A stretch of DNA of 64,000 nt from Parabacteroides gordonii MS-1 = DSM 23371 (GTDB lineage Bacteria; Bacteroidota; Bacteroidia; Bacteroidales; Tannerellaceae), in NCBI RefSeq assembly GCF_000969825.1, contig NZ_KQ033920.1, positions 1 to 64,000 on the forward strand, read 5' to 3'. The notes under the pieces are model-generated. The model saw only the letters and a list, made by a program, of their open reading frames with translations, was not told the origin of the DNA and searched no databases. The translations under genes were made by a program, and so were the position numbers. Position 1 is the stretch's first letter, and every line of letters begins with the position of its first letter. Shown here one piece after another: positions 19,974 to 55,566 of the stretch.

Positions 19974-20245
19974 TAGTCCATGAAGAACTATGTTATTGTG
20001 GATGCAAATATAGTAATTATGAGCAGATTCCAACTGTTGATGCGATTAATTATCAGGGGTTCTATGTATATTTTTGCTTCACAGAGCCCTTTTGGGTTCT
20101 TTTGTGTGTTCTCCTGTGATACCAATACGGGATTCCGGGCTCTTGCCTTATAGTCGTTTTAGAGGAAAAAACATATATATAACAACACTTTTTTCGGCTT
20201 AATACCCTGAATAAACAAGGGATAGACATAGTTCTTCATGGACTA
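19974..20245. repeat. Invertible promoter segment 1 with 19-bp inverted repeats
   Basis: TAGTCCATGAAGAACTATG at 19974-19992 is the exact reverse complement of CATAGTTCTTCATGGACTA at 20227-20245, enclosing 234 bp with no gene. The segment carries an outward promoter near its left end. This is the classic layout of invertible promoters in Bacteroides and Parabacteroides. The second element at 55300-55566 has the same design and related repeats (CATAGTTCT..A.G.ACT). In the orientation given here the promoter faces away from the downstream HU/DUF4469 gene, so that operon should be OFF. Confidence 0.88.
20005..20012 (-). promoter_or_regulatory. -7 element TATATTTG inside invertible segment 1
   Basis: TATATTTG reads on the minus strand, 12 bp from the left inverted repeat, with GTTG about 18 bp upstream as a weak -33. 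After inversion the same promoter would sit next to the right repeat and read into the gene at 20514. Confidence 0.75.
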
Positions 20246-20513: not shown

Positions 20514-21269
20514 ATGGCAGAAAAAACTATTCTAACCGTCGACCTGTACGATAACGTACTGACAGAAAAAGCCGGCGATTACTCCGGCAAGGTATCCATC
20601 ACCGGAACTGTTCGTAACGCCGATATTGCCAGACGCATCATTAAGGAGCGTACTGAATATCGCTTTGAAACTATTCTTAATATCCTTGAACTGGCCGATC
20701 AGAAAAAGATTGAAGCTATCGCGGAAGGTAAAAGTCTGATTGATGGTGTAGGGCAATTCCTACTCAACATTATCGGCTCGTTTGAAGAAGCGGCAGTATT
20801 TAATGCCGATAAGAATAAATTCGGTATCACTTTTACCCCTGGTAAGGCTCTGCTGGATGCCCTCAAATTATTGGTACCCAATTTTAGAATTGCTAAAACC
20901 GGCCCGGTTATCAATAATATCACCGACTCGACTACACAGTCTGTCAGCCAGACGCTTACACCGAATGCTCCGGCTATTATTTCTGGTTCCGGCTTATTGC
21001 TGAAAGGTGATGACTCTTCGGTAGGTGTTTATTTTACTCCTGATGGAGATAACCAAACACCTGTCAAGGCCAGTTTGATCGTATCGAATACCACTTCGCA
21101 GATCATTATCCAGATCCCGGCATTGGCCGACGGACAATATCTGTTGAGTATCACTACCCAGGCTGGTGCGGGCTATTCTGTGGTGAAGGAACCGCGTACT
21201 TATCAGCTGCCTATCTTGCTGACCGTAGGAAGTGATCCGGGTGACGACGACCGTCCGGTTATTGAGTAA
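20514..21269 (+). CDS. HU-like DNA-binding / DUF4469 protein (phase-variable module 1)
   Basis: A 251-residue cytoplasmic protein. The N-terminal about 110 residues fit the HU-like DNA-binding domain of Bacteroidetes (TEYRFETILNILELAD, EGKSLIDGVGQF). The C-terminal about 90 residues (LTPNAPAIISGSGLLLKGDD to PILLTVG) fit DUF4469, an immunoglobulin/TIG-like sandwich. No signal peptide or membrane segment. It is the first gene behind invertible promoter 1 and a close paralog of the gene at 54381-55145, with the same ATATC-ATG start context. It ends VIE-TAA, and the reading frame behind the stop holds a degenerate 12-nt repeat array. Role unknown; first-gene position suggests a regulator or leader-acting factor for the operon. 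Confidence 0.85.
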   Translation: MAEKTILTVDLYDNVLTEKAGDYSGKVSITGTVRNADIARRIIKERTEYRFETILNILELADQKKIEAIAEGKSLIDGVGQFLLNIIGSFEEAAVFNADKNKFGITFTPGKALLDALKLLVPNFRIAKTGPVINNITDSTTQSVSQTLTPNAPAIISGSGLLLKGDDSSVGVYFTPDGDNQTPVKASLIVSNTTSQIIIQIPALADGQYLLSITTQAGAGYSVVKEPRTYQLPILLTVGSDPGDDDRPVIE

Positions 21270-21449
21270 CCGGTTATTGAGTAGGATGGGAAAACCGTTG
21301 TTGAGACTATGCCCGGCACCGGTATTCCCACTTGCCTCAACACCCTTGTTGGCACTAGTCTCAACACCGTTGTTCCCACCCTACTCAACAGAGGTGTCGA
21401 TATCGACCTCGACACTGTTGTTGATATACCCCTTATGAATAAATGTTAA
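21270..21449 (+). repeat. 12-nt-period repeat tail behind the DUF4469 stop, module 1
   Basis: Degenerate units such as CTCAACACCGTT, CTCAACACCCTT and GTCGATATCGAC follow each other at 12-nt spacing. In the frame of the DUF4469 gene the stretch is open for 54 codons after the stops TAA (21267) and TAG (21282), until TAA at 21447. Its translation ends DTVVDIP, as in module 2. It could be a read-through or decayed C-terminal extension, or a DNA/RNA element. Confidence 0.65.
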
Positions 21450-21505: not shown

Positions 21506-22249
21506 ATGATAATAGATAAGAGCCGCAAGGTAATTTACTTGCACAACCCGAAATGCGGGGGTACTTTTTTGAGAGATATCTATCAGGAGAAATATGGTGA
21601 CACAGAGGCGATACGATGGTGGAAACTTTATTCGCGTGAACATGGTACCGATCTTGGGCATATCTCTTATGACGATTTACCACGTTTCGTACCAGACTTT
21701 GAAGAATATCGTTTGCTGATGATGGTACGTAACCCTTATAACCGTTTTATTTCCGGCTATAAAGAAACAAAAAGCCAGTTTAGTACACCTGTCAGGCTTG
21801 GGGGATTGATTAATTATCCCAGGGCATATTACGGAAGTGGAGAGGAATATAATAGGTTGAGCAAAGTAGAGAAAGTTTATGAACAAATGAAATCCGCCTT
21901 GCCTTTTACATTTTTACATGAGTTACGGAAAATACAACTTCTCTCTGCTCCGGATTTTTGTAAATGGCTTGGTTCTTCTAATAGAAAGAGACAAGACTTA
22001 TTCCTGCGTAATAAACGGATACCTTGGCTAAATCCCCAAAGTGATTTCATCGGTTCGGGTGTTACTGTTCTGCACTATGAGTCGGTATCAGACTGGTCTG
22101 TTTTGTTTGAAGCCTTTGGTTTGATGGAATACTCCGGTCGTTTGTCTATCGCGAAGGATTATACTATGGATGAATCCTTTTACCGGATACTCGAAAGACT
22201 CTATCCCGACGATAAACAGTTATTTGATTGGTACAAGAAGATTACCTGA
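21506..22249 (+). CDS. PAPS-dependent sulfotransferase-like protein (cargo of module 1)
   Basis: A 247-residue protein with the two hallmark PAPS-binding motifs of sulfotransferase family 2. HNPKCGGTFLR at residues 13-23 is the 5'-phosphosulfate loop, and MMVRNPYNRFISGYKE at about 72-87 is the 3'-phosphate motif. No signal peptide, so it would act in the cytoplasm on a glycan, lipid or small-molecule acceptor that cannot be named. It follows the HU/DUF4469 gene by 236 bp with no terminator between them, so it is expected to be transcribed from invertible promoter 1 when that faces right. It ends before the hairpin at 22292-22336. A weak promoter of its own cannot be excluded. Confidence 0.85.
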   Translation: MIIDKSRKVIYLHNPKCGGTFLRDIYQEKYGDTEAIRWWKLYSREHGTDLGHISYDDLPRFVPDFEEYRLLMMVRNPYNRFISGYKETKSQFSTPVRLGGLINYPRAYYGSGEEYNRLSKVEKVYEQMKSALPFTFLHELRKIQLLSAPDFCKWLGSSNRKRQDLFLRNKRIPWLNPQSDFIGSGVTVLHYESVSDWSVLFEAFGLMEYSGRLSIAKDYTMDESFYRILERLYPDDKQLFDWYKKIT

Positions 22250-47505: not shown

Positions 47506-47518
47506 TTAATTGAATAGT

Positions 47519-49399
47519 ATGAAAAAGAGTTTATTATATATCCTTGGATCCGCTGTTCTGACATGCTCGCTGTCCGGTTGCGACGAATGGCTGGGTAATA
47601 CGGATCCTTCCGACTTCCTGACGACCGATCAGGTATGGAATGACAATACAATGGTGCAAGGTGTTCTTGCAAACCTCTATAACGATGTTCCTAAAAACGG
47701 CTCACTCGACGACGATGTCAACTTCTCCCTGTACGACGATTTCATGTGGTGCGGACTGATGAACCAGGACGTGGAAACAGCCCGTAACCAGATGGTATCT
47801 TATGCGTACGATATATTCAGATATTATGATTATGAATATATCTATAAGATCAACCAGGGTATCGAGTCGCTGAAGACCTCCACTTTACCCGAAGCGGATG
47901 TAGCCGTTTATGATGCCGAGTTCCGTTTCCTGCGTGCTTATACTTATTTCCAGATGTGTATCCGCATGGGGGGTATTCCTCTGGTTACGGCTACACAAAG
48001 TTATACATCGGGTATGGATATATCCGAACTTCAGACACCGCGTTCTACCGAAGCTGAAGTATACGAATATGTATATAACGAATGTATGGCGGTCAAAGAA
48101 ACACTGGCAGCCAACAACAATGTGAAATATGTTTCACGGGCCAACAAATATACCGCCCTGGCACTGGCCGGCCGCTCTATGTTGTACGCCGGTTCCATCG
48201 CAAAATACAATGCAGCCATGAGCAACCCGGTTCATTCCGACCTGCAGAATGGTGTGGTAGGTATGACCGGAGCCGATGCGAACGGTTATTATGAAAAGGC
48301 GTTGGCTTGTTCCGAGGAGATCATCAATGGCGGCGTGTTCCGGTTGCAGGGTGTAGACGCACCTTCGGCCGATGCTTTCTATAACGCCGTTTCCATTAAA
48401 GATAATAATACGGAAGTGATCTGGAGCAAGGATTATTCGGCAAGCAAATTCCATAGCTTCTCCTTCGCCAATATCGCACAGTCGATGAATGAAGACAACG
48501 ATAACGGTTCCGACCTCTGTCCGACACTTCAGTTGGTCGAGTCTTTCAGCAGACTGGACGGTACTTCCGCTCGGCTGGCCGATAAGGATGCCAACGGTAA
48601 CTACATCGCTTACGACAACCGTGCCGATATCTTTACCGGTCGCGACTACCGCCTGCAAGGTACCTGCCTGCTTCCGGAACAGGAATTTAAAGGCGCCCAC
48701 CTGGATGTACAGGCCGGTGTAGCCGTTTATCAGAACGGTTCTTACCTCTTTGTCGACGGTTCCGAACCCAACTCCAAATATGAAGCAGCCGACAACCATC
48801 CGAATGCCGACGGCGGTACGTTCGTAGGTAAAGACGGCCCTCTGAACCGTGCTACTTATACGAATACAGGTTTCAACCTGCGCAAATATGTCGATGCTAC
48901 CGTTGGATCTTCCGCCCGTGGCCAGGGTTCTTATATCTGGTGGGCTTACTTCCGTATGGGAGAAGTTTATCTGAATGCGGCTGAAGCGGCTATGGAACTG
49001 GGACAGACAGGCAAAGCCCTGCAATATGTAAATGTCGTACGCCAGCGTGCCGGTTTCGGTGCCGACTCATGGACTGCGGCCGACCTGACCATCGACAATC
49101 TGCTGAAAGAACGTCGTTGCGAATTGGCACTCGAAGATCACCGTTGGTGGGATCTGAAACGTCTGCGTAAAGCGCATACACAATGGAATGGCGTTCAGTC
49201 TGAAAATACGATGTTGTATGCCCTCTATCCTTACCGCGTGATCGGTGGCCCGAACGACGGCAAGTATATCTTTGAACGTAAGATCGCCCCGCGTTTCAAA
49301 GCGCCCCGTAACTTCCGTGTAGGTAACTATTACACTTCATTCAACCAAGATGATCTGAATAAGAACCCGAAACTGGTACAGAACCCGAACTACAATTAA
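47519..49399 (+). CDS. SusD/RagB surface lipoprotein (SusD 4)
   Basis: A 626-residue surface lipoprotein, partner of SusC 4. The ATG at 47519 (MKKSLLYIL) is chosen over an upstream TTG. The lipobox is SLSGC (Cys21). The SusD/RagB layout is an N-terminal helical part (DEWLGNTDPSDFLTTDQVWND; FLRAYTYFQMCIRMGGIPL) and a C-terminal part (LNAAEAAMELGQTGKALQYVNVVRQRAG; RRCELALEDHRWWDLKRLR) typical of PF07980. It sits between SusC 4 and a DUF3823 lipoprotein, the usual order in Bacteroidales utilisation loci. Confidence 0.94.
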   Translation: MKKSLLYILGSAVLTCSLSGCDEWLGNTDPSDFLTTDQVWNDNTMVQGVLANLYNDVPKNGSLDDDVNFSLYDDFMWCGLMNQDVETARNQMVSYAYDIFRYYDYEYIYKINQGIESLKTSTLPEADVAVYDAEFRFLRAYTYFQMCIRMGGIPLVTATQSYTSGMDISELQTPRSTEAEVYEYVYNECMAVKETLAANNNVKYVSRANKYTALALAGRSMLYAGSIAKYNAAMSNPVHSDLQNGVVGMTGADANGYYEKALACSEEIINGGVFRLQGVDAPSADAFYNAVSIKDNNTEVIWSKDYSASKFHSFSFANIAQSMNEDNDNGSDLCPTLQLVESFSRLDGTSARLADKDANGNYIAYDNRADIFTGRDYRLQGTCLLPEQEFKGAHLDVQAGVAVYQNGSYLFVDGSEPNSKYEAADNHPNADGGTFVGKDGPLNRATYTNTGFNLRKYVDATVGSSARGQGSYIWWAYFRMGEVYLNAAEAAMELGQTGKALQYVNVVRQRAGFGADSWTAADLTIDNLLKERRCELALEDHRWWDLKRLRKAHTQWNGVQSENTMLYALYPYRVIGGPNDGKYIFERKIAPRFKAPRNFRVGNYYTSFNQDDLNKNPKLVQNPNYN

Positions 49400-50233: not shown

Positions 50234-51337
50234 ATGGATATGTGCAGACACTTTCTGGCAACTCTTGTAGTTGTACTATTTATGGTCTCCTGTGGCAGAC
50301 CTTCTCCTTTCCGGGATAAATTGTATGAAACTATGCAAACCTCCCTGAGTTGGAGAAACGATACGACCGGTATCTGGGAAACCGCCGGCTGGTGGAACTC
50401 CGCCAACGTATTAACCGCTACCATCCGCTACGCAGCCGTCACCGGCGACACCGATGTGCTTCCCGTCATTCAGGATGTATATGAGAAAGCCCGCCGTTAC
50501 CAGGTGGGAGTGGACTCGACGGGGACACCTCGCTATTGTACGAATTTCATCAATGACTATTACGACGATGAGGGTTGGTGGGCTTTGGCATGGATCGAAG
50601 CGTCTAAGCTGACAGGGGAGAAGAAGTACCTCGATATGGCGGAAGTAATCTTCGACGATATGACTACCGGATGGAGTGAAGAATGCGGTGGCGGTATTTT
50701 CTGGAAAAAGAATCCGCTGCACTATAAGAATTCCATCGCCAACAACCTTTTCTCGCTGACGGCTATCCGCTTGTACAAGGCTACTCAGAACCCGTCTTAT
50801 CTCGACTGGTTCAAGAAGAACGTGGCGTGGTATATGCAAACAGGCATGATCAATACGGATATTTACCAGATCGAAGACGGGACGGGCAAGGACTGTACCC
50901 CCAACCGGGATGCCCATTACACCTATAACCAGGGTGTGGCGATCGCTGTCCTGACTGAAATGTATCTGGTGACGAATGATAATTCTTATCTGGAACTGGC
51001 TGAAAAGATCGCCGATGCCACAATCACAACCCGGTTGGTGACAGACGAAGGTATCCTTCGTGAAATGAAACCGGCTATCGAACATAGCAACGACGGTGTA
51101 CAGTTCAAAGGCATTTTTATACGCCATCTGGCTTTCCTGTATGAGGTGACAAAGAACCCGGCCTACAAAGATTTCATCATAAAGAATGCCGAGTCGATCC
51201 TCTCGAAAGATTACGACCCGGCATCCAAAAGCTTCGGCTGTTACTGGTACGGCCCTTTCCATCGGGTTAGTTCAGCCGCCAATGCCTGTGCACTGGAATG
51301 TGTGATTGAAGCCTATTCTCTTACAAAACAATTTTAA
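50234..51337 (+). CDS. GH76-like lipoprotein, probable alpha-1,6-mannanase family
   Basis: A 367-residue lipoprotein (LFMVSC, Cys20) with the (alpha/alpha)6 pattern of GH76. The adjacent catalytic aspartates are seen as Asp111-Asp112 in NDYYDDEGWWALAWIEA. Other family landmarks are TAGWWNSANVL, GGGIFWKKN and HYTYNQGVAIAVLTEMY. Family members hydrolyse alpha-1,6-mannosidic bonds of fungal mannan backbones. Here it follows an arabinan operon after a terminator and its own -7 element. Its 3' end overlaps the oppositely transcribed GLUG gene by 17 bp. Either this locus also handles mannose-containing glycans or the enzyme has a different specificity. Confidence 0.85.
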   Translation: MDMCRHFLATLVVVLFMVSCGRPSPFRDKLYETMQTSLSWRNDTTGIWETAGWWNSANVLTATIRYAAVTGDTDVLPVIQDVYEKARRYQVGVDSTGTPRYCTNFINDYYDDEGWWALAWIEASKLTGEKKYLDMAEVIFDDMTTGWSEECGGGIFWKKNPLHYKNSIANNLFSLTAIRLYKATQNPSYLDWFKKNVAWYMQTGMINTDIYQIEDGTGKDCTPNRDAHYTYNQGVAIAVLTEMYLVTNDNSYLELAEKIADATITTRLVTDEGILREMKPAIEHSNDGVQFKGIFIRHLAFLYEVTKNPAYKDFIIKNAESILSKDYDPASKSFGCYWYGPFHRVSSAANACALECVIEAYSLTKQF

Positions 51338-54182
51338 ACCGTTCCTTACCGATCCGTACAAAATAGATACCATCGGGTAGTCGGACTGTCTCAACCTCTC
51401 CGACTATCAGGTGGCAAACAGTTTGCAGTTTGCCGTCGGCGGTATAGATATAACCCGGTTCGTCGGTAATGGCTTGTATATGTAGCTCGTTTCCGGTTTT
51501 CCAGACTTTCGGATGGTTGGCTTCTATCTTTTCGTTGGCTACCGGGGCGGGATTCTTCACAATGCCGTCGATAAATATATCGAGCGATTGACGAACATAT
51601 TTAATGATATATGCTCCGTCACTTGTACGGGGTGTGATGGTTTCCCCACGGCTGGTTGTTATTATCGGGGCTGACTGGTCATATTCCTTGTCGAGCGAGA
51701 GATAGAACCGGAAGCTACCCCATGACTCCACTTCATACGCTCCGGCAACCGGATCGGTTGCAGCTCCCTCGACGGCCGGAAGAGTTACTGTATAGTAAAC
51801 CGGAGTTGGTTCAGGTTCAGGAGTCGGTTCGGGAGTCGGATCGGGTTTACTTTCTTTTTTACTAAATATGACCTTGATGGCGACATCACTATTTACTGTA
51901 TAAGAAGAACCACTGCTGAATGTAGTACCGTTTACGGTGAGTGTATTCAACTCATAATCGGCATCCGGCATAGCAGTAATTGTCAGTACTGTATTATAAG
52001 GAAGCTGATCGTCGTTATTCACTGCTATTTCAGATCCGTTCAAGGGATCGGGGCGGGTTACCGATAATATCCCGTTGCTGCCCGGATCGATTTTGACGGT
52101 ATGCAGCAGGTAGGGAGCCATCAGCTTTTCAGGCTGTGAAGTAAACCCTTGCAGCTTCGGCAAAGTGCTGAAGCTATTCAAATCCCAGACAGACGTATTC
52201 CAACCATTGAAACAACCACCTGCATCACTATTCAGATTACTACTTGTAAGAGGGGTACCTTCCTGCGGATCATAAGTATCAGCCGATTTAGTAATCTGGC
52301 GTGGCATATCGAAGAAAGAGAAATTATTCACGTCGTCCGTATCTGCACCCGTACCGATTACACGGTGGGCATCAGCTGGGATTTTTGCATTAACAGCCAA
52401 GCAATGTCTAACAATACCCACATTTTCATGATCGTTAAAACCGACTATTCCGCCAGCCGTTTCGTCCATTCCATTTGTAAGGCTCGAAACAACTGCGTCG
52501 GCTGCTATTGAAACCTCTTCGGTGGCAAAACAATACTCGATTGTACCTGTATTATGTCCGGCTATTCCGCCGAGATAGGAATCAGAACTATCATTTACTT
52601 TCACGGGGATAAGATTATAGCAGTTGGAAATCGTACCGCTGTTATCGCCTGCAATACCTCCGGCATGTCTGTTTGTTCCGTCGGAAGACAAGACAAAACC
52701 TTCACCGGAGACGTAACATTGATCGATCGTTCCTTCATTAACGGCGGCGATGGCTCCGGCCCTGCTTTCTGCTCCGCTGGCGGTGGAAGTAATCCCGTCC
52801 GCAACGACATTTACCGCCACCTTTCGGACGGTTGCCCCTCCGTCGATCGTACCGAACAATCCGGCTTGCGCCTGTTTGAGATCAGCTTTGAGACTCAAAG
52901 AAACTGTGTGGTTATCGCCATCGAAGGTTCCTTTGAAGGGATGAGCAGTTGTTCCAATTGGTGTCCAGTCAGGGGGAAGGGCGATATCGTTTGTCAATTT
53001 AAAATGTTCGGTATTATTATAGCCAACACCGTCCTGATTGATTTGATAGACATAATAATTAAAAATAGTCGTAGAGTGAATCTCATATGGTGTTGCTTCA
53101 CTTCCATTTCCGATAACAAAAAATTGATCAAGAGGTAGACCTTCTGTGGTAGAATCGAGTGTAGGAAGTTGACCGTCATGGAGTGTCCATCCGGCATTTT
53201 CCCATCCTGCAAGTACCCCTCCTGAATTTCCATGGAAGTTATCCCTTGTTATATCAGCTCCATTTTTATCTGTAGGGTCATTTCCCGTAGGATTAGTGAT
53301 ATTTGTACCGTTGACTAAAAGAGTCAAACTGCTCGAATAACAGTCTTTTATCGTTGGATTGTGAGGTGAAGCTACCATACGTTGCACTGCTATCTCTCCT
53401 TCTGAACCGGGAGCAATAACAGCTTTTATCAAATTGGCAAAAGAGAAACAATGCTTGACTGTAGTTGCATTTCCTGCAATACCTCCTGCTCCTATACTAT
53501 TGCCACCACCCGTAAATATACTACTTATTTCGTTTACAGCCACATAACAGTATTCTATAGAAATGTTTCCAGAAGAATTAGCAGTACCAATTATTCCACC
53601 TGCATAGAAGGCTGATCCTTCTACTTTTATTGAACTGCCTGTAACAAAACAGTTCTTAATAGATAGCTCGCCTGATCTAGTGTATGATTCTCCGACTATT
53701 CCTCCTGCTGTCCTTGTACCTTTAATACCCTGTTCACTAATGATTACTCCGAGGTTCTGAATTGTTCCACCACTCGCATTACCAAATAAACCAGCAAACT
53801 GTACATTTTCTATTTTAAGATTTTTGATTGTATGTTTATTACCATCAAAAGAGCCCTTGAATATATTATAAAAAGAGTCCCCTATCGGTGTCCACTCTTG
53901 ATTATTCAGGTCTATATCATTCATCAGCTTGAAATATTTACCTGCATAATCAGAACCTCCTCCACTATTAACAAGATTCACCTGTTGCGCCAGATAGGCA
54001 AGTTCTGCTGCAGTTGCTATTTGATAAGGATTTAGTTCTTCACCATTTCCTCCGGCGAATTGGTTCGCGATATCTGTTCCATTCCATACAGATTCTTCTT
54101 CCGCCTGCATTCCGCAGGGAGCTATCCATAAAAAAACCGCCACATAGAAGAGGCGGATAATTAATTGTAACTTGTTTCTCAT
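51321..54182 (-). CDS. Large secreted GLUG-motif surface protein (cargo of module 2)
   Basis: A 953-residue exported protein. The signal peptide is residues 1-27 (ends CGMQA). A long region of GLUG-type repeats follows (NPYQIATAAELAYLAQQVN; GLFGNASGGTIQNLGV; AGGIVGESYTRSG; GGIAGHNTGTIEYCF), a beta-solenoid architecture seen in adhesins and surface proteins. An InlB-like B-repeat region comes next (LTITAMPDADYELNTLTVNG), then a Pro/Glu/Thr linker at about 778-793 and a C-terminal sandwich ending DGIYFVRIGKERFKIVL, reminiscent of a cell-surface sorting domain. It starts 48 bp after the repeat tail of the HU/DUF4469 gene, so it probably depends on invertible promoter 2. The 5' half is more AT-rich than the 3' half. 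Function as adhesin is inference. Confidence 0.85.
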   Translation of the reverse strand: MRNKLQLIIRLFYVAVFLWIAPCGMQAEEESVWNGTDIANQFAGGNGEELNPYQIATAAELAYLAQQVNLVNSGGGSDYAGKYFKLMNDIDLNNQEWTPIGDSFYNIFKGSFDGNKHTIKNLKIENVQFAGLFGNASGGTIQNLGVIISEQGIKGTRTAGGIVGESYTRSGELSIKNCFVTGSSIKVEGSAFYAGGIIGTANSSGNISIEYCYVAVNEISSIFTGGGNSIGAGGIAGNATTVKHCFSFANLIKAVIAPGSEGEIAVQRMVASPHNPTIKDCYSSSLTLLVNGTNITNPTGNDPTDKNGADITRDNFHGNSGGVLAGWENAGWTLHDGQLPTLDSTTEGLPLDQFFVIGNGSEATPYEIHSTTIFNYYVYQINQDGVGYNNTEHFKLTNDIALPPDWTPIGTTAHPFKGTFDGDNHTVSLSLKADLKQAQAGLFGTIDGGATVRKVAVNVVADGITSTASGAESRAGAIAAVNEGTIDQCYVSGEGFVLSSDGTNRHAGGIAGDNSGTISNCYNLIPVKVNDSSDSYLGGIAGHNTGTIEYCFATEEVSIAADAVVSSLTNGMDETAGGIVGFNDHENVGIVRHCLAVNAKIPADAHRVIGTGADTDDVNNFSFFDMPRQITKSADTYDPQEGTPLTSSNLNSDAGGCFNGWNTSVWDLNSFSTLPKLQGFTSQPEKLMAPYLLHTVKIDPGSNGILSVTRPDPLNGSEIAVNNDDQLPYNTVLTITAMPDADYELNTLTVNGTTFSSGSSYTVNSDVAIKVIFSKKESKPDPTPEPTPEPEPTPVYYTVTLPAVEGAATDPVAGAYEVESWGSFRFYLSLDKEYDQSAPIITTSRGETITPRTSDGAYIIKYVRQSLDIFIDGIVKNPAPVANEKIEANHPKVWKTGNELHIQAITDEPGYIYTADGKLQTVCHLIVGEVETVRLPDGIYFVRIGKERFKIVL

Positions 54183-54230
54183 ACTTATTCTGTTTTTATT
54201 ATATAGTTCTTCATACTCATTCTTTTAACA

Positions 54231-54383
54231 TTAATTAGTTGGGGGTATGTCGACAACGTTATCGACACGGATGTCGAAGCCTCTGTCGATACAGGTGTCG
54301 ATACCGTTATCGAGGTAGGTGTCGACAACGGTGTCGAGGGGGATGTCGATAACAGCTTCGATACTCCCCTCGACAGCCGGTTA
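54231..54383 (-). repeat. 12-nt-period repeat tail behind the DUF4469 stop, module 2
   Basis: Eleven units of exactly 12 nt, pattern NTCGAY plus six variable bases, follow the DUF4469 stop TAA (54383-54381). In the same frame 49 codons stay open until TAA at 54231. They encode tetrapeptides of the form hydrophobic-Asp-x-x (VDTY, LDNG, IDTC, IDRG, FDIR, VDNV, VDIP). The DNA is also rich in partial palindromes (GTCGACAACGTTATCGAC). It could be coding (read-through) or a protein-binding or RNA-structure array. Confidence 0.75.
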
Positions 54384-55145
54384 CTCGATAACCGGACGAT
54401 CATCTTCGCCGCCACCCGGCTGACTGCCTACACTTAACAAAATGGGGTACTGATACGTACGCGGTTCTTTAACGAGGGTATAGCTGGCACCTGCCTGCGT
54501 CGTGATACTCAACAGATATTGTCCGTCGGGCAATGCCGGGATCTGGATAATGATCTGCGAAGTGGTGTTCGATACGATCAGGTCGACTTTGACCGGTGTC
54601 TTGTCGGCCCCGTCGGGAGTGAAGTAAACGCCTACCGACGGATCGTCGCCTTTCAACAGCAGGCCTGCCCCGTTGATAACACCCGGAGCGTTCGGAGTCA
54701 GTATCTGGTTGACTGATTTTGTTTTAGAGTCGGTAAAGCCGTTGATAACCGGCCCCGTCTTAGCTACACGGAAGTTGGGAACCAATAATTTCAGTGCCTT
54801 CAACAATGCTTTTCCCGGCGTAAAGGTGACACCGAATTTATGCAGATCGGAGTTGAAGATGGGGCTTTCTCCACCGAGCGGCCCGCTGAAGTTAAGTAAC
54901 CACTGGCCTACGCCGTCTACCACGCTCTTGCCCTCTGCAATGGCTTCGACCTTGATATCGTCTGCCATACCGAGGATGTTCAGAATCGTTTCCTGGCGGT
55001 ACTCGGTACGCGCTTTAACGATACGGTCGGCGATATCCGTGTTGTGGATCGTTCCGGTGATGGATACTTTACCTGCAAAATCGTTTGCTTTTTCTGTCAG
55101 TACGTTATCGTACATGTCGACAGTGAGAATTGTTTTTTCTGCCAT
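54381..55145 (-). CDS. HU-like DNA-binding / DUF4469 protein (phase-variable module 2)
   Basis: A 254-residue paralog of the protein at 20514-21269. The start at 55145 (MAEKTILTVDMYDN) is preceded by ATATC-like sequence also found in module 1; a longer open frame upstream is not conserved. It has an HU-like N-terminal domain (RTEYRQETILNILGMADD, EGKSVVDGVGQWLLNF) and a DUF4469 C-terminal domain (LTPNAPGVINGAGLLLKGDD to YPILLSVGS). It ends GGEDDRPVIE-TAA followed by the in-frame tetrapeptide-repeat tail. It is the first gene after invertible promoter 2, with a large surface protein next. No export signal; nucleic-acid binding is inferred from the HU-like fold. Confidence 0.86.
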   Translation of the reverse strand: MAEKTILTVDMYDNVLTEKANDFAGKVSITGTIHNTDIADRIVKARTEYRQETILNILGMADDIKVEAIAEGKSVVDGVGQWLLNFSGPLGGESPIFNSDLHKFGVTFTPGKALLKALKLLVPNFRVAKTGPVINGFTDSKTKSVNQILTPNAPGVINGAGLLLKGDDPSVGVYFTPDGADKTPVKVDLIVSNTTSQIIIQIPALPDGQYLLSITTQAGASYTLVKEPRTYQYPILLSVGSQPGGGEDDRPVIE

Positions 55146-55299
55146 GATATTATTATTAAATGTTGTGTTCGTTGATGAGTTCGGATAAACCCTGATGTCT
55201 GGGTAGAAACAGAGGATGAAAATCGGTAGATTTTCCCTCTCTAATACATACATAATGCTTTGTTGATATCCTGTCTATCATATATTTAGAAAATAGATT

Positions 55300-55566
55300 A
55301 GTTCGTTTAGAACTATGGAAGATTGTAGATAATCAAGGTTTTTATGAGTTGAATGTGTTTGAAATGTAATGGAAATCGTAAAACAACTCATTTTATGAAA
55401 GAGATATGAATTCCCTTATGGTACCAGAGCAGGCTAAAAAAGGAGGTAAATAGTAGTTTTTTATTGTCTAAATTTCACGCATATTATGAATATTTGCTCC
55501 TTAAGGATGCTATATCATATATTTTATTACCTTTGCAAACATGAATAACATAGTTCTAAACGAACT
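55300..55566. repeat. Invertible promoter segment 2 with 18-bp inverted repeats
   Basis: AGTTCGTTTAGAACTATG at 55300-55317 is the exact reverse complement of CATAGTTCTAAACGAACT at 55549-55566, enclosing 231 bp without a gene. Size, promoter position and repeat sequence match element 1 at 19974-20245. In the present orientation the internal promoter reads right, away from the HU/DUF4469-GLUG operon (OFF) and toward the hybrid two-component gene. Confidence 0.87.
55528..55535 (+). promoter_or_regulatory. -7 element TACCTTTG inside invertible segment 2
   Basis: TACCTTTG lies 13 bp inside the right inverted repeat and reads right. Element 1 has its -7 at 12 bp from its distal repeat. No convincing -33 TTTG at 19-21 bp upstream was found. 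Confidence 0.65.

Follow-up and report, generated by a model that had tools for sequence, protein, structure and literature searches.

In Bacteroides, the leader regulators UpxY and UpxZ are encoded by the first genes of parallel phase-variable capsule operons, and a repeat class of the form AGTTC-N5-GAACT has reportedly been published for the invertible promoters of Bacteroides fragilis. Two reports on the latter species describe its invertible promoters, of the Mpi and Tsr19 systems, as flanked by inverted repeats and placed upstream of a surface operon (PMC4747536, PMC3090145), and a like arrangement of a putative promoter segment is met at loci described here. Intergenic tandem units of 23 nt with dyad symmetry, another feature of the present loci, are likewise found in the BrickBuilt elements of Porphyromonas gingivalis, for which one consensus over 19 places is described together with leader and tail segments (PMC4596501); unlike BrickBuilt, the arrays reported below are locus-specific in their unit and are placed behind DUF4469 genes. 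A solved member of both PF14734 (DUF4469) and PF14848 (HU-DNA_bdg) is 4fmr, BVU_2165 of Bacteroides vulgatus, which is titled putative DNA-binding protein. In the literature searched we found no report of an array, a loop specificity or a function for the 4fmr family. A full-text search of the open-licence literature returned no paper on DUF4469, and among the matches listed there for invertible promoters, Tsr19, the HU superfamily, HU-HIG, 23-bp repeats, palindromic leaders and operator arrays none reported the pairing of HU/DUF4469 with an array.

Like UpxY and UpxZ, the HU/DUF4469 gene stands first in many parallel surface operons. Unlike them, its product is an HU plus IPT/TIG-like protein, which is proposed to act on DNA via a private operator array. 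The comparison with UpxY drawn in an earlier note on this DNA thus holds for position only, as a Pfam scan (E <= 0.01) of the protein gave just HU-DNA_bdg and DUF4469 and no match to a NusG-type N-terminal domain. The DUF4469 domain looks IPT/TIG-like, comparable with domains of the transcription factors NFAT and EBF1. A common fold proves no function.

Two loci in the window and their relatives in the genome

The window, that is the whole stretch of 64 kb of Parabacteroides gordonii DNA that was analysed, contains 2 of the 21 HU/DUF4469 genes of this genome, and a third close copy of the module (L011, C2:71115) lies just beyond its edge. What the earlier note had presented as a module seen twice is real at both places, but the genome holds 21 copies and not 2. 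Both window loci have the claimed order of inverted repeats, HU/DUF4469 gene, array behind the stop codon and unrelated cargo gene. At locus 1 a HU-DNA_bdg plus DUF4469 protein of 251 aa (20514..21269, + strand), ending in the tag DDDRPVIE, is followed by a sulfotransferase-family protein of 247 aa (Sulfotransfer_2; 21506..22249, + strand). The corresponding protein of locus 2 has 254 aa and the tag EDDRPVIE (54381..55145, - strand), and the cargo is a GLUG-motif protein of 953 aa (51321..54182, - strand) whose N-terminus looks, by eye, like an export signal. These assignments are from Pfam, where the HU-DNA_bdg and DUF4469 domains of both window proteins matched with E values of 7.6e-26 to 3.6e-24, with scores above the curated cut-offs and in family order (DUF4469 90.4 bits and HU-DNA_bdg 85.7 bits at locus 1; 85.1 and 89.7 bits, respectively, at locus 2). 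The two cargo genes, sulfotransferase and GLUG protein, are indeed unrelated, and the similarity between the loci, as judged by eye, stops where it had been said to stop, at ATACCCC...AATGTTAA.

Across the genome, the downstream genes include those for a TonB-dependent receptor, a fimbrillin-like protein, FimA, GLUG/DUF6383, NVEALA, a histidine kinase and a sulfotransferase. At 17 of the 21 own loci the next gene, judged by eye, seems to encode an exported product, the exceptions being L002, L007, L009 and L021, the last of which has no fitting co-directional gene near by. An exchangeable cargo is consistent with these 20 downstream genes, which come from several unrelated families. The relative with most DUF4469 matches has 43 of them in one genome.

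A C-terminal tag, [DE]DDRPVIE, written in varying codons, ends 20 of the 21 own DUF4469 proteins (in the window at 21243-21266, + strand, and 54384-54407, - strand) and was also found on 16 of the 30 own proteins scanned of a second HU family, HU-HIG, which is described below. Other genomes have other tags, namely EDDRPGEL on four HU-HIG proteins of genome G049, DGPxVQ in G052 and EGGDDIL in G003, and the distribution of the DUF4469 tags over the tree crosses the borders of old paralog clades. A species-specific C-terminal tag of this kind suggests a shared partner that may differ between species. Among the first 12 loci of G052 (L092-L103) an array accompanied all 9 DGPxVQ-tagged DUF4469 proteins and none of the 3 untagged ones, while five later loci (L313-L317) fit less well, with L317 having an array and no tag and L315 being tagged with an array score of only 17.2.

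Inverted repeats upstream of the HU/DUF4469 gene

Upstream of both HU/DUF4469 genes, as claimed, a segment of about 270 bp lies between perfect inverted repeats. The putative invertible promoter segment of locus 1 extends over 19974..20245, with repeats of 20 bp at 19974-19993 and 20226-20245, and that of locus 2 over 55300..55566, with repeats of 18 bp at 55300-55317 and 55549-55566. Both promoters had been said to face away from their operons; this is so at locus 1, where a full -33/-7 motif near the left arm faces away, while the segment of locus 2 holds only a -7-like TACCTTTG in that orientation and no full motif.

In contrast to the Mpi and Tsr19 systems of B. fragilis, inverted repeats (score of at least 15) are present upstream of just 13 of the 21 own loci, 10 of these 13 with AGTTC/GAACT. 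Eleven other genomes of the family contributed 40 loci, and 1 of these has such repeats upstream. Over the 83 loci with enough upstream sequence there are 21 with such repeats, of which 12, ten of them own, carry GAACT/AGTTC. The putative invertible promoter, which had been counted into the shared design, is therefore present at a part of the own loci and does not belong to the core; in the tabulated DUF4469 genes of other genomes arrays behind the stop codon are common whereas upstream inverted repeats are rare. The array is the constant part of the module, and the invertible segment is an optional add-on. At some of the loci with repeats other than GAACT/AGTTC (e.g. L006, L044) they resemble dispersed repeats rather than inversion sites.

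With one genome per species compared, no whole segment was found inverted between loci of the first set, in which a few short inverted upstream matches (34-55 bp) were seen that are at least partly repeat arms; upstream matches of at least 70 bp between fresh and own loci, again with one genome per species, were three in number and all direct. A second type of inverted repeat (TGACTAGAAAAAACG...) flanks promoter segments upstream of L009, L019, L058 and L059, the promoter orientation being on at L019 and L058 and off at L009 and L059. Inversion between the relatives at these four loci was considered and set aside, as the segments align too poorly to call one. The genome contains 66 matches to the Phage_integrase family, 0 of them inside the window and 0 assigned to the inverted repeats described here.

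A dyad array behind the stop codon

In the arrays the half-sites alternate in orientation, so that the unit is a dyad of 24 bp in the window and of 23 bp at most loci. At locus 1 the array (21263..21433, + strand, lag 24) is made of alternating 12-nt half-sites directly 3' of the stop codon, and at locus 2 (54245..54361, - strand, lag 24) it lies between stop and cargo gene with half-sites on GTCGAC. The earlier description of an array with a 12-nt period behind the stop is borne out at both loci in so far as the array exists, but 12 nt is half of a dyad unit; this period was noticed because the window arrays belong to the 24-bp minority. The idea of the array as coding sequence, 12 nt being four codons, was dropped, as the unit at most loci is 23 nt and not a multiple of 3.

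At 18 of the 21 own loci an array with a score of at least 20 stands behind the stop codon. The other three, L003, L006 and L008, score 17.0, 16.2 and 11.4 and are palindromic by eye and by fold (z -6.7, -5.2 and -3.8). In the 20 own loci with a cargo gene the best array segment begins between -8 and +79 nt from the stop, so that the candidate operator adjoins the gene of its putative regulator. Altogether 148 of 198 DUF4469 loci reached a score of 20 and 50 stayed under this threshold, the unit length of the 148 arrays being 23 bp in 132, 24 bp in 12 and 22 bp in 4. To these numbers the first 133 loci, 23 of which were chosen by their C-terminal tag, contributed 97 arrays (23 bp in 86, 24 bp in 7, 22 bp in 4), and the 65 fresh loci 51 (23 bp in 46, 24 bp in 5). 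Included in the 133 are 10 DUF4469 genes from other families of the order, 6 of which are followed by 23-bp arrays. When direct 5-mer matches were pooled over 84 loci, 1115 were counted at lag 23 and 918 at lag 46, with 113 and 79 at lags 24 and 48 and at most 55 at every other lag from 4 to 60. At 47 loci with strong 23-bp arrays conservation within a locus amounts to 0.89-0.93 in the half-site cores, which lie at 4.5-7.5 bp from the dyad, and both spacers vary.

The units of the DUF4469 arrays differ from locus to locus. The L010 array, which is that of locus 2 and the one array tested in this respect, has no close copy in the genome and gave weak matches only, the L011 array among them. That the array serves as a guide to another site in its locus was rejected, as 8-mers of the own array in the flanks barely exceed the expectation from swapped loci (7 vs 4.4, 11 vs 6.7 and 16 vs 14.8).

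As a measure of chance, 400 kb of the own genome gave, at a score of at least 19, 8 arrays with lag 22, 2 with lag 23 and 1 with lag 24, the last sitting inside a coding gene, and 0 to 2 arrays at each other lag from 15 to 40; at the same score 200 kb of E. coli gave no arrays at lag 22 or 23. Arrays of lag 22 or 23 were likewise absent from 100 kb of G003 background and from 60 kb of G073. Intergenic dyad arrays whose unit is 22 bp long form a wider class (L137, L139, L141, L144-L150, L157-L176), and 22-bp arrays also occur in two genomes without DUF4469 hits, at 7 and 5 per 200 kb. A weak 24-bp periodicity at 47658-47744 of the window (score 18), inside the coding region 47510-49399, is probably a protein repeat.

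A hairpin loop of DUF4469 co-varies with the array unit

The proposed recognition loop is GAGYSVV in the protein of locus 1 (residues 218-224; codons 21165..21185, + strand) and GASYTLV in that of locus 2 (residues 219-225; codons 54471..54491, - strand), the latter being, in the predicted structure, the turn that joins strands 208-218 and 224-232. That the HU domain as a whole does the recognising was rejected, because units are unrelated in some pairs with 93-97% identity in this domain. A comparison of close pairs, six sharing the unit and six with different units, pointed to the last DUF4469 hairpin loop as a hotspot; residue 237 (L018 numbering) differs in all six pairs with different units and in one of the six that share it. 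These 12 pairs were hand-picked from 22 close pairs, and one of the 'same' pairs, L115/L116, has a unit similarity of 0.69, under the later cut-off of 0.71; the pairs left out were L015/L055, L015/L018, L020/L063, L044/L045, L097/L313, L013/L055, L320/L330, L049/L050, L013/L015 and L005/L048.

When all 8-residue windows of the protein were scanned over 3896 pairs less than 55% identical, the loop ranked top, and its value was reached anywhere in the protein in 0, 2 and 1 of 2000 label permutations for the 30, 15 and 60 top pairs, respectively. The scan at less than 40% identity was weaker (90, 29 and 508 of 2000 permutations for the same numbers of top pairs). Rank correlation over all pairs was very weak in every window and failed to single out the loop (rho 0.083), the best value being 0.117 at HU residues 26-33; the loop stands out solely among the most similar pairs and not in the all-pairs correlation.

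The loop rule was fixed before it was tested on a fresh set of 65 unused loci. The test comprised 55 pairs with an HU identity of at least 0.75 and at least one fresh member, and a unit was taken as shared at a similarity of at least 0.71, the 99th percentile in the 133-locus set. The unit was shared by 14 of 14 pairs whose loops differ by at most one residue, by 3 of 3 pairs in between and by 4 of 38 pairs with at least three differences (Fisher 1.7e-9, calculated over pairs that are not independent). When the same pairs were ranked by HU identity 8 of the top 14 share the unit, and when ranked by the rest of DUF4469, 6. A window scan of the fresh set peaked at residue 234 with a rho of 0.64, vs a mean over windows of 0.12, and in 19 pairs in which each protein was used once the loop gave a Spearman coefficient of 0.71, compared with 0.21 in HU and 0.15 in the remainder of DUF4469.

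Of the 19 pairs with identical loops 18 have a shared unit, and five loci with the loop GGNTKQLL account for 10 of these pairs; L360/L440 have an identical loop and do not share the unit. L398 has the same loop as L018, L055, L344 and L402, to which it is 31-35% identical (33% to L018), with unit similarities of 0.82-0.84, and L108 and L116, which are 23% identical, have the same loop and a unit similarity of 0.73, all of these matches having different flanking residues. Similar units with different loops were found in L379/L409, L049/L404, L015/L344, L015/L402, L015/L018 and L015/L055. At a flank identity of up to 0.45 the loop effect was reached in 0 of 2000 permutations. By these comparisons the loop is a strong but insufficient predictor of the unit, since 0 of 8 remote pairs (less than 55% identical) with loops one residue apart and the same lag share it, and since the effect is gone at a flank identity of up to 0.35 (340 and 657 of 2000 permutations).

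Alternative explanations

Loop and array lie within about 100 bp, and the two could co-vary by linkage only, being exchanged as one recombination block while the array is not read by the protein, which we think unlikely. Such a block would account for the 12 different-unit pairs, where codons are identical at 65 of 116 positions from loop to stop vs 975 of 1333 in HU (a share of 0.56 vs 0.70-0.73 upstream), and for L377/L430, which breaks sharply just before the loop; in 10 same-unit pairs the figures are 85 of 113 and 930 of 1157, all 22 pairs having been hand-chosen with L115/L116 included. Block exchange of loop and array is likely to be common, because the loop-to-stop codons are more diverged in the different-unit pairs. 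Linkage by itself, however, does not fit the windows between loop and array, which follow the unit less than the loop does, nor L337/L338, L370/L441 and L013/L015, which changed loop and array and kept the DNA between them (nucleotide identity 0.92-0.94), such well-conserved DNA being found in only 3 of the 12 different-unit pairs. It is also at odds with L398 and L108/L116, which share loop and unit with relatives of different flanks at 23-35% identity, and it leaves the presence of arrays behind these genes unexplained.

Three further readings were considered. RNA pairing tolerates G·U and not A·C, whereas duplex DNA treats both alike. Over 199 loci, 171 of them with arms, the mismatches in the dyad arms were 314 G·U vs 320 A·C, a GU share of 0.495 (95% CI 0.456-0.535), and in a first round 149 vs 149 in 84 loci; no RNA-level selection on the arrays is visible in this comparison over 199 loci. 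Fold energies had suggested that the array acts in the transcript, as a hairpin or attenuator ahead of the cargo, its predicted RNA folds being far stabler than those of dinucleotide shuffles (z < -2.5 at 20 of 21 own loci, -1.3 at L004), and it would agree with the location of the array in a presumed leader and with the region from stop to cargo, where at 20 own loci 0 full promoter motifs and 0 -7 boxes were found, the latter a weak point as 0.66 are expected by chance. Folding alone says little, since good RNA folds are to be had from every dyad array. Two of the 22-bp arrays of the own genome (L137, L150) sit between divergent genes, and G·U does not outnumber A·C as it should under RNA pairing; after this test the RNA-structure reading was dropped, and we regard it as improbable. 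It is very improbable, too, that the arrays are a minisatellite-like or MITE-like by-product, mobile or self-homogenising and with no reader. BrickBuilt of P. gingivalis likewise consists of tandem repeats of 23 nt, for which dyad symmetry is mentioned (PMC4596501), arrays of 22 bp are found at other places too (8 per 400 kb of the own genome, and in two genomes without DUF4469 hits), and template switching could homogenise units; but the position of the arrays is fixed behind one gene family, the one array tested (L010) is without a close copy elsewhere, and the array co-varies with one protein loop. Processive antitermination of the UpxY kind, in which the product of the first gene would pass RNA polymerase through its own leader with the array as loading or pausing site, would suit the leader position, the single such gene per operon and, at part of the loci, the inverted repeats together with promoter motifs. 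It is hardly credible for a protein that has no match to a NusG-type domain, and symmetric dyads lacking a G·U bias would be unexpected for an RNA loading site.

A second HU family with arrays

The HU-HIG model has 54 matches in the own genome. The scan for arrays covered 50 HU-HIG loci of three genomes, 30 of them from among the own 54. Where the open frame has at least 200 aa, 17 of 23 are closely preceded by a dyad-type array (15 with lag 22 and 2 with lag 21); among the shorter ones 3 of 27 have an upstream array, and the stop of one, L237, is followed by a 23-bp array. At E < 0.01 the unit of the L240 array is found again at seven other places of the genome, the C1-peptidase loci L139 and L145 among them, with one further weak place within a coding region, and that of L224 recurs at two places. 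HU-HIG together with its recurring arrays looks like a candidate regulator with putative operators, in line with the reading of the DUF4469 loci. All five L240-type arrays viewed (L275, L276, L279, L280, L285) lie between convergent genes, a REP-like position.

Proposed mechanism and significance

We consider it probable that the HU/DUF4469 protein is a cis-encoded, sequence-specific DNA-binding regulator of its own operon, acting via a private array that its loop reads. The suggestion of a leader-encoded regulator of its own operon, made in the earlier note, is on this account still the best reading, supported by the private adjoining array and by the co-variation of array and loop. The position and geometry of the arrays, their private units, the lack of an RNA-pairing bias and the loop-unit co-variation are read directly from the DNA. 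Against DNA binding counts the HU part, which is acidic (median pI 5.4 and net charge -2.4 in 79 proteins), unlike ordinary HU.

In the mechanism that we propose, the HU/DUF4469 gene would be the leader gene of an operon which is usually for exported proteins. The HU-like domain would be a conserved scaffold, and the hairpin loop of the IPT/TIG-like DUF4469 domain would read half-sites some 6-8 bp long. Private alternating half-sites, with 23 or 24 bp per dyad unit, would make up the operator between the stop codon of the regulator and the cargo gene. As no promoter motif was found between stop and cargo at 20 own loci, co-transcription of the cargo is probable, and RNA polymerase would then meet a bound array in its path. 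Besides binding and co-transcription we infer regulation and its sign: a bound array would control the transcription that runs into the cargo, its likeliest role being that of a self-limiting roadblock or an operator, and the self-limiting roadblock would be the simplest reading of a bound array. An invertible promoter, where present, would set the whole cassette on or off. Since loop and operator are neighbours at the 3' end of the gene, both could be swapped in a single recombination event, which would yield a new matched specificity and keep the paralogs from cross-talk.

More tentatively, and with rather more doubt than confidence, we suggest that the DUF4469 loop of 6-8 residues, on an IPT/TIG-like domain fused to an HU fold, names the half-site and makes up, with the array, a portable specificity cassette whose protein-DNA code is readable, moved by one recombination and minting mutually silent surface-operon switches, and that HU-HIG follows the same grammar with 22-bp arrays and with operators spread to other genes. 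If this is true, a Pfam domain of unknown function would become a family of sequence-specific DNA readers whose target is largely predictable from one loop, and since genomes would supply matched protein-operator pairs side by side, the recognition code would be testable from sequence alone. It would also explain how about twenty paralogous switches coexist in one gut bacterium without cross-talk, and the inheritance of loop and operator as one block would be a mechanism for rapid rewiring.
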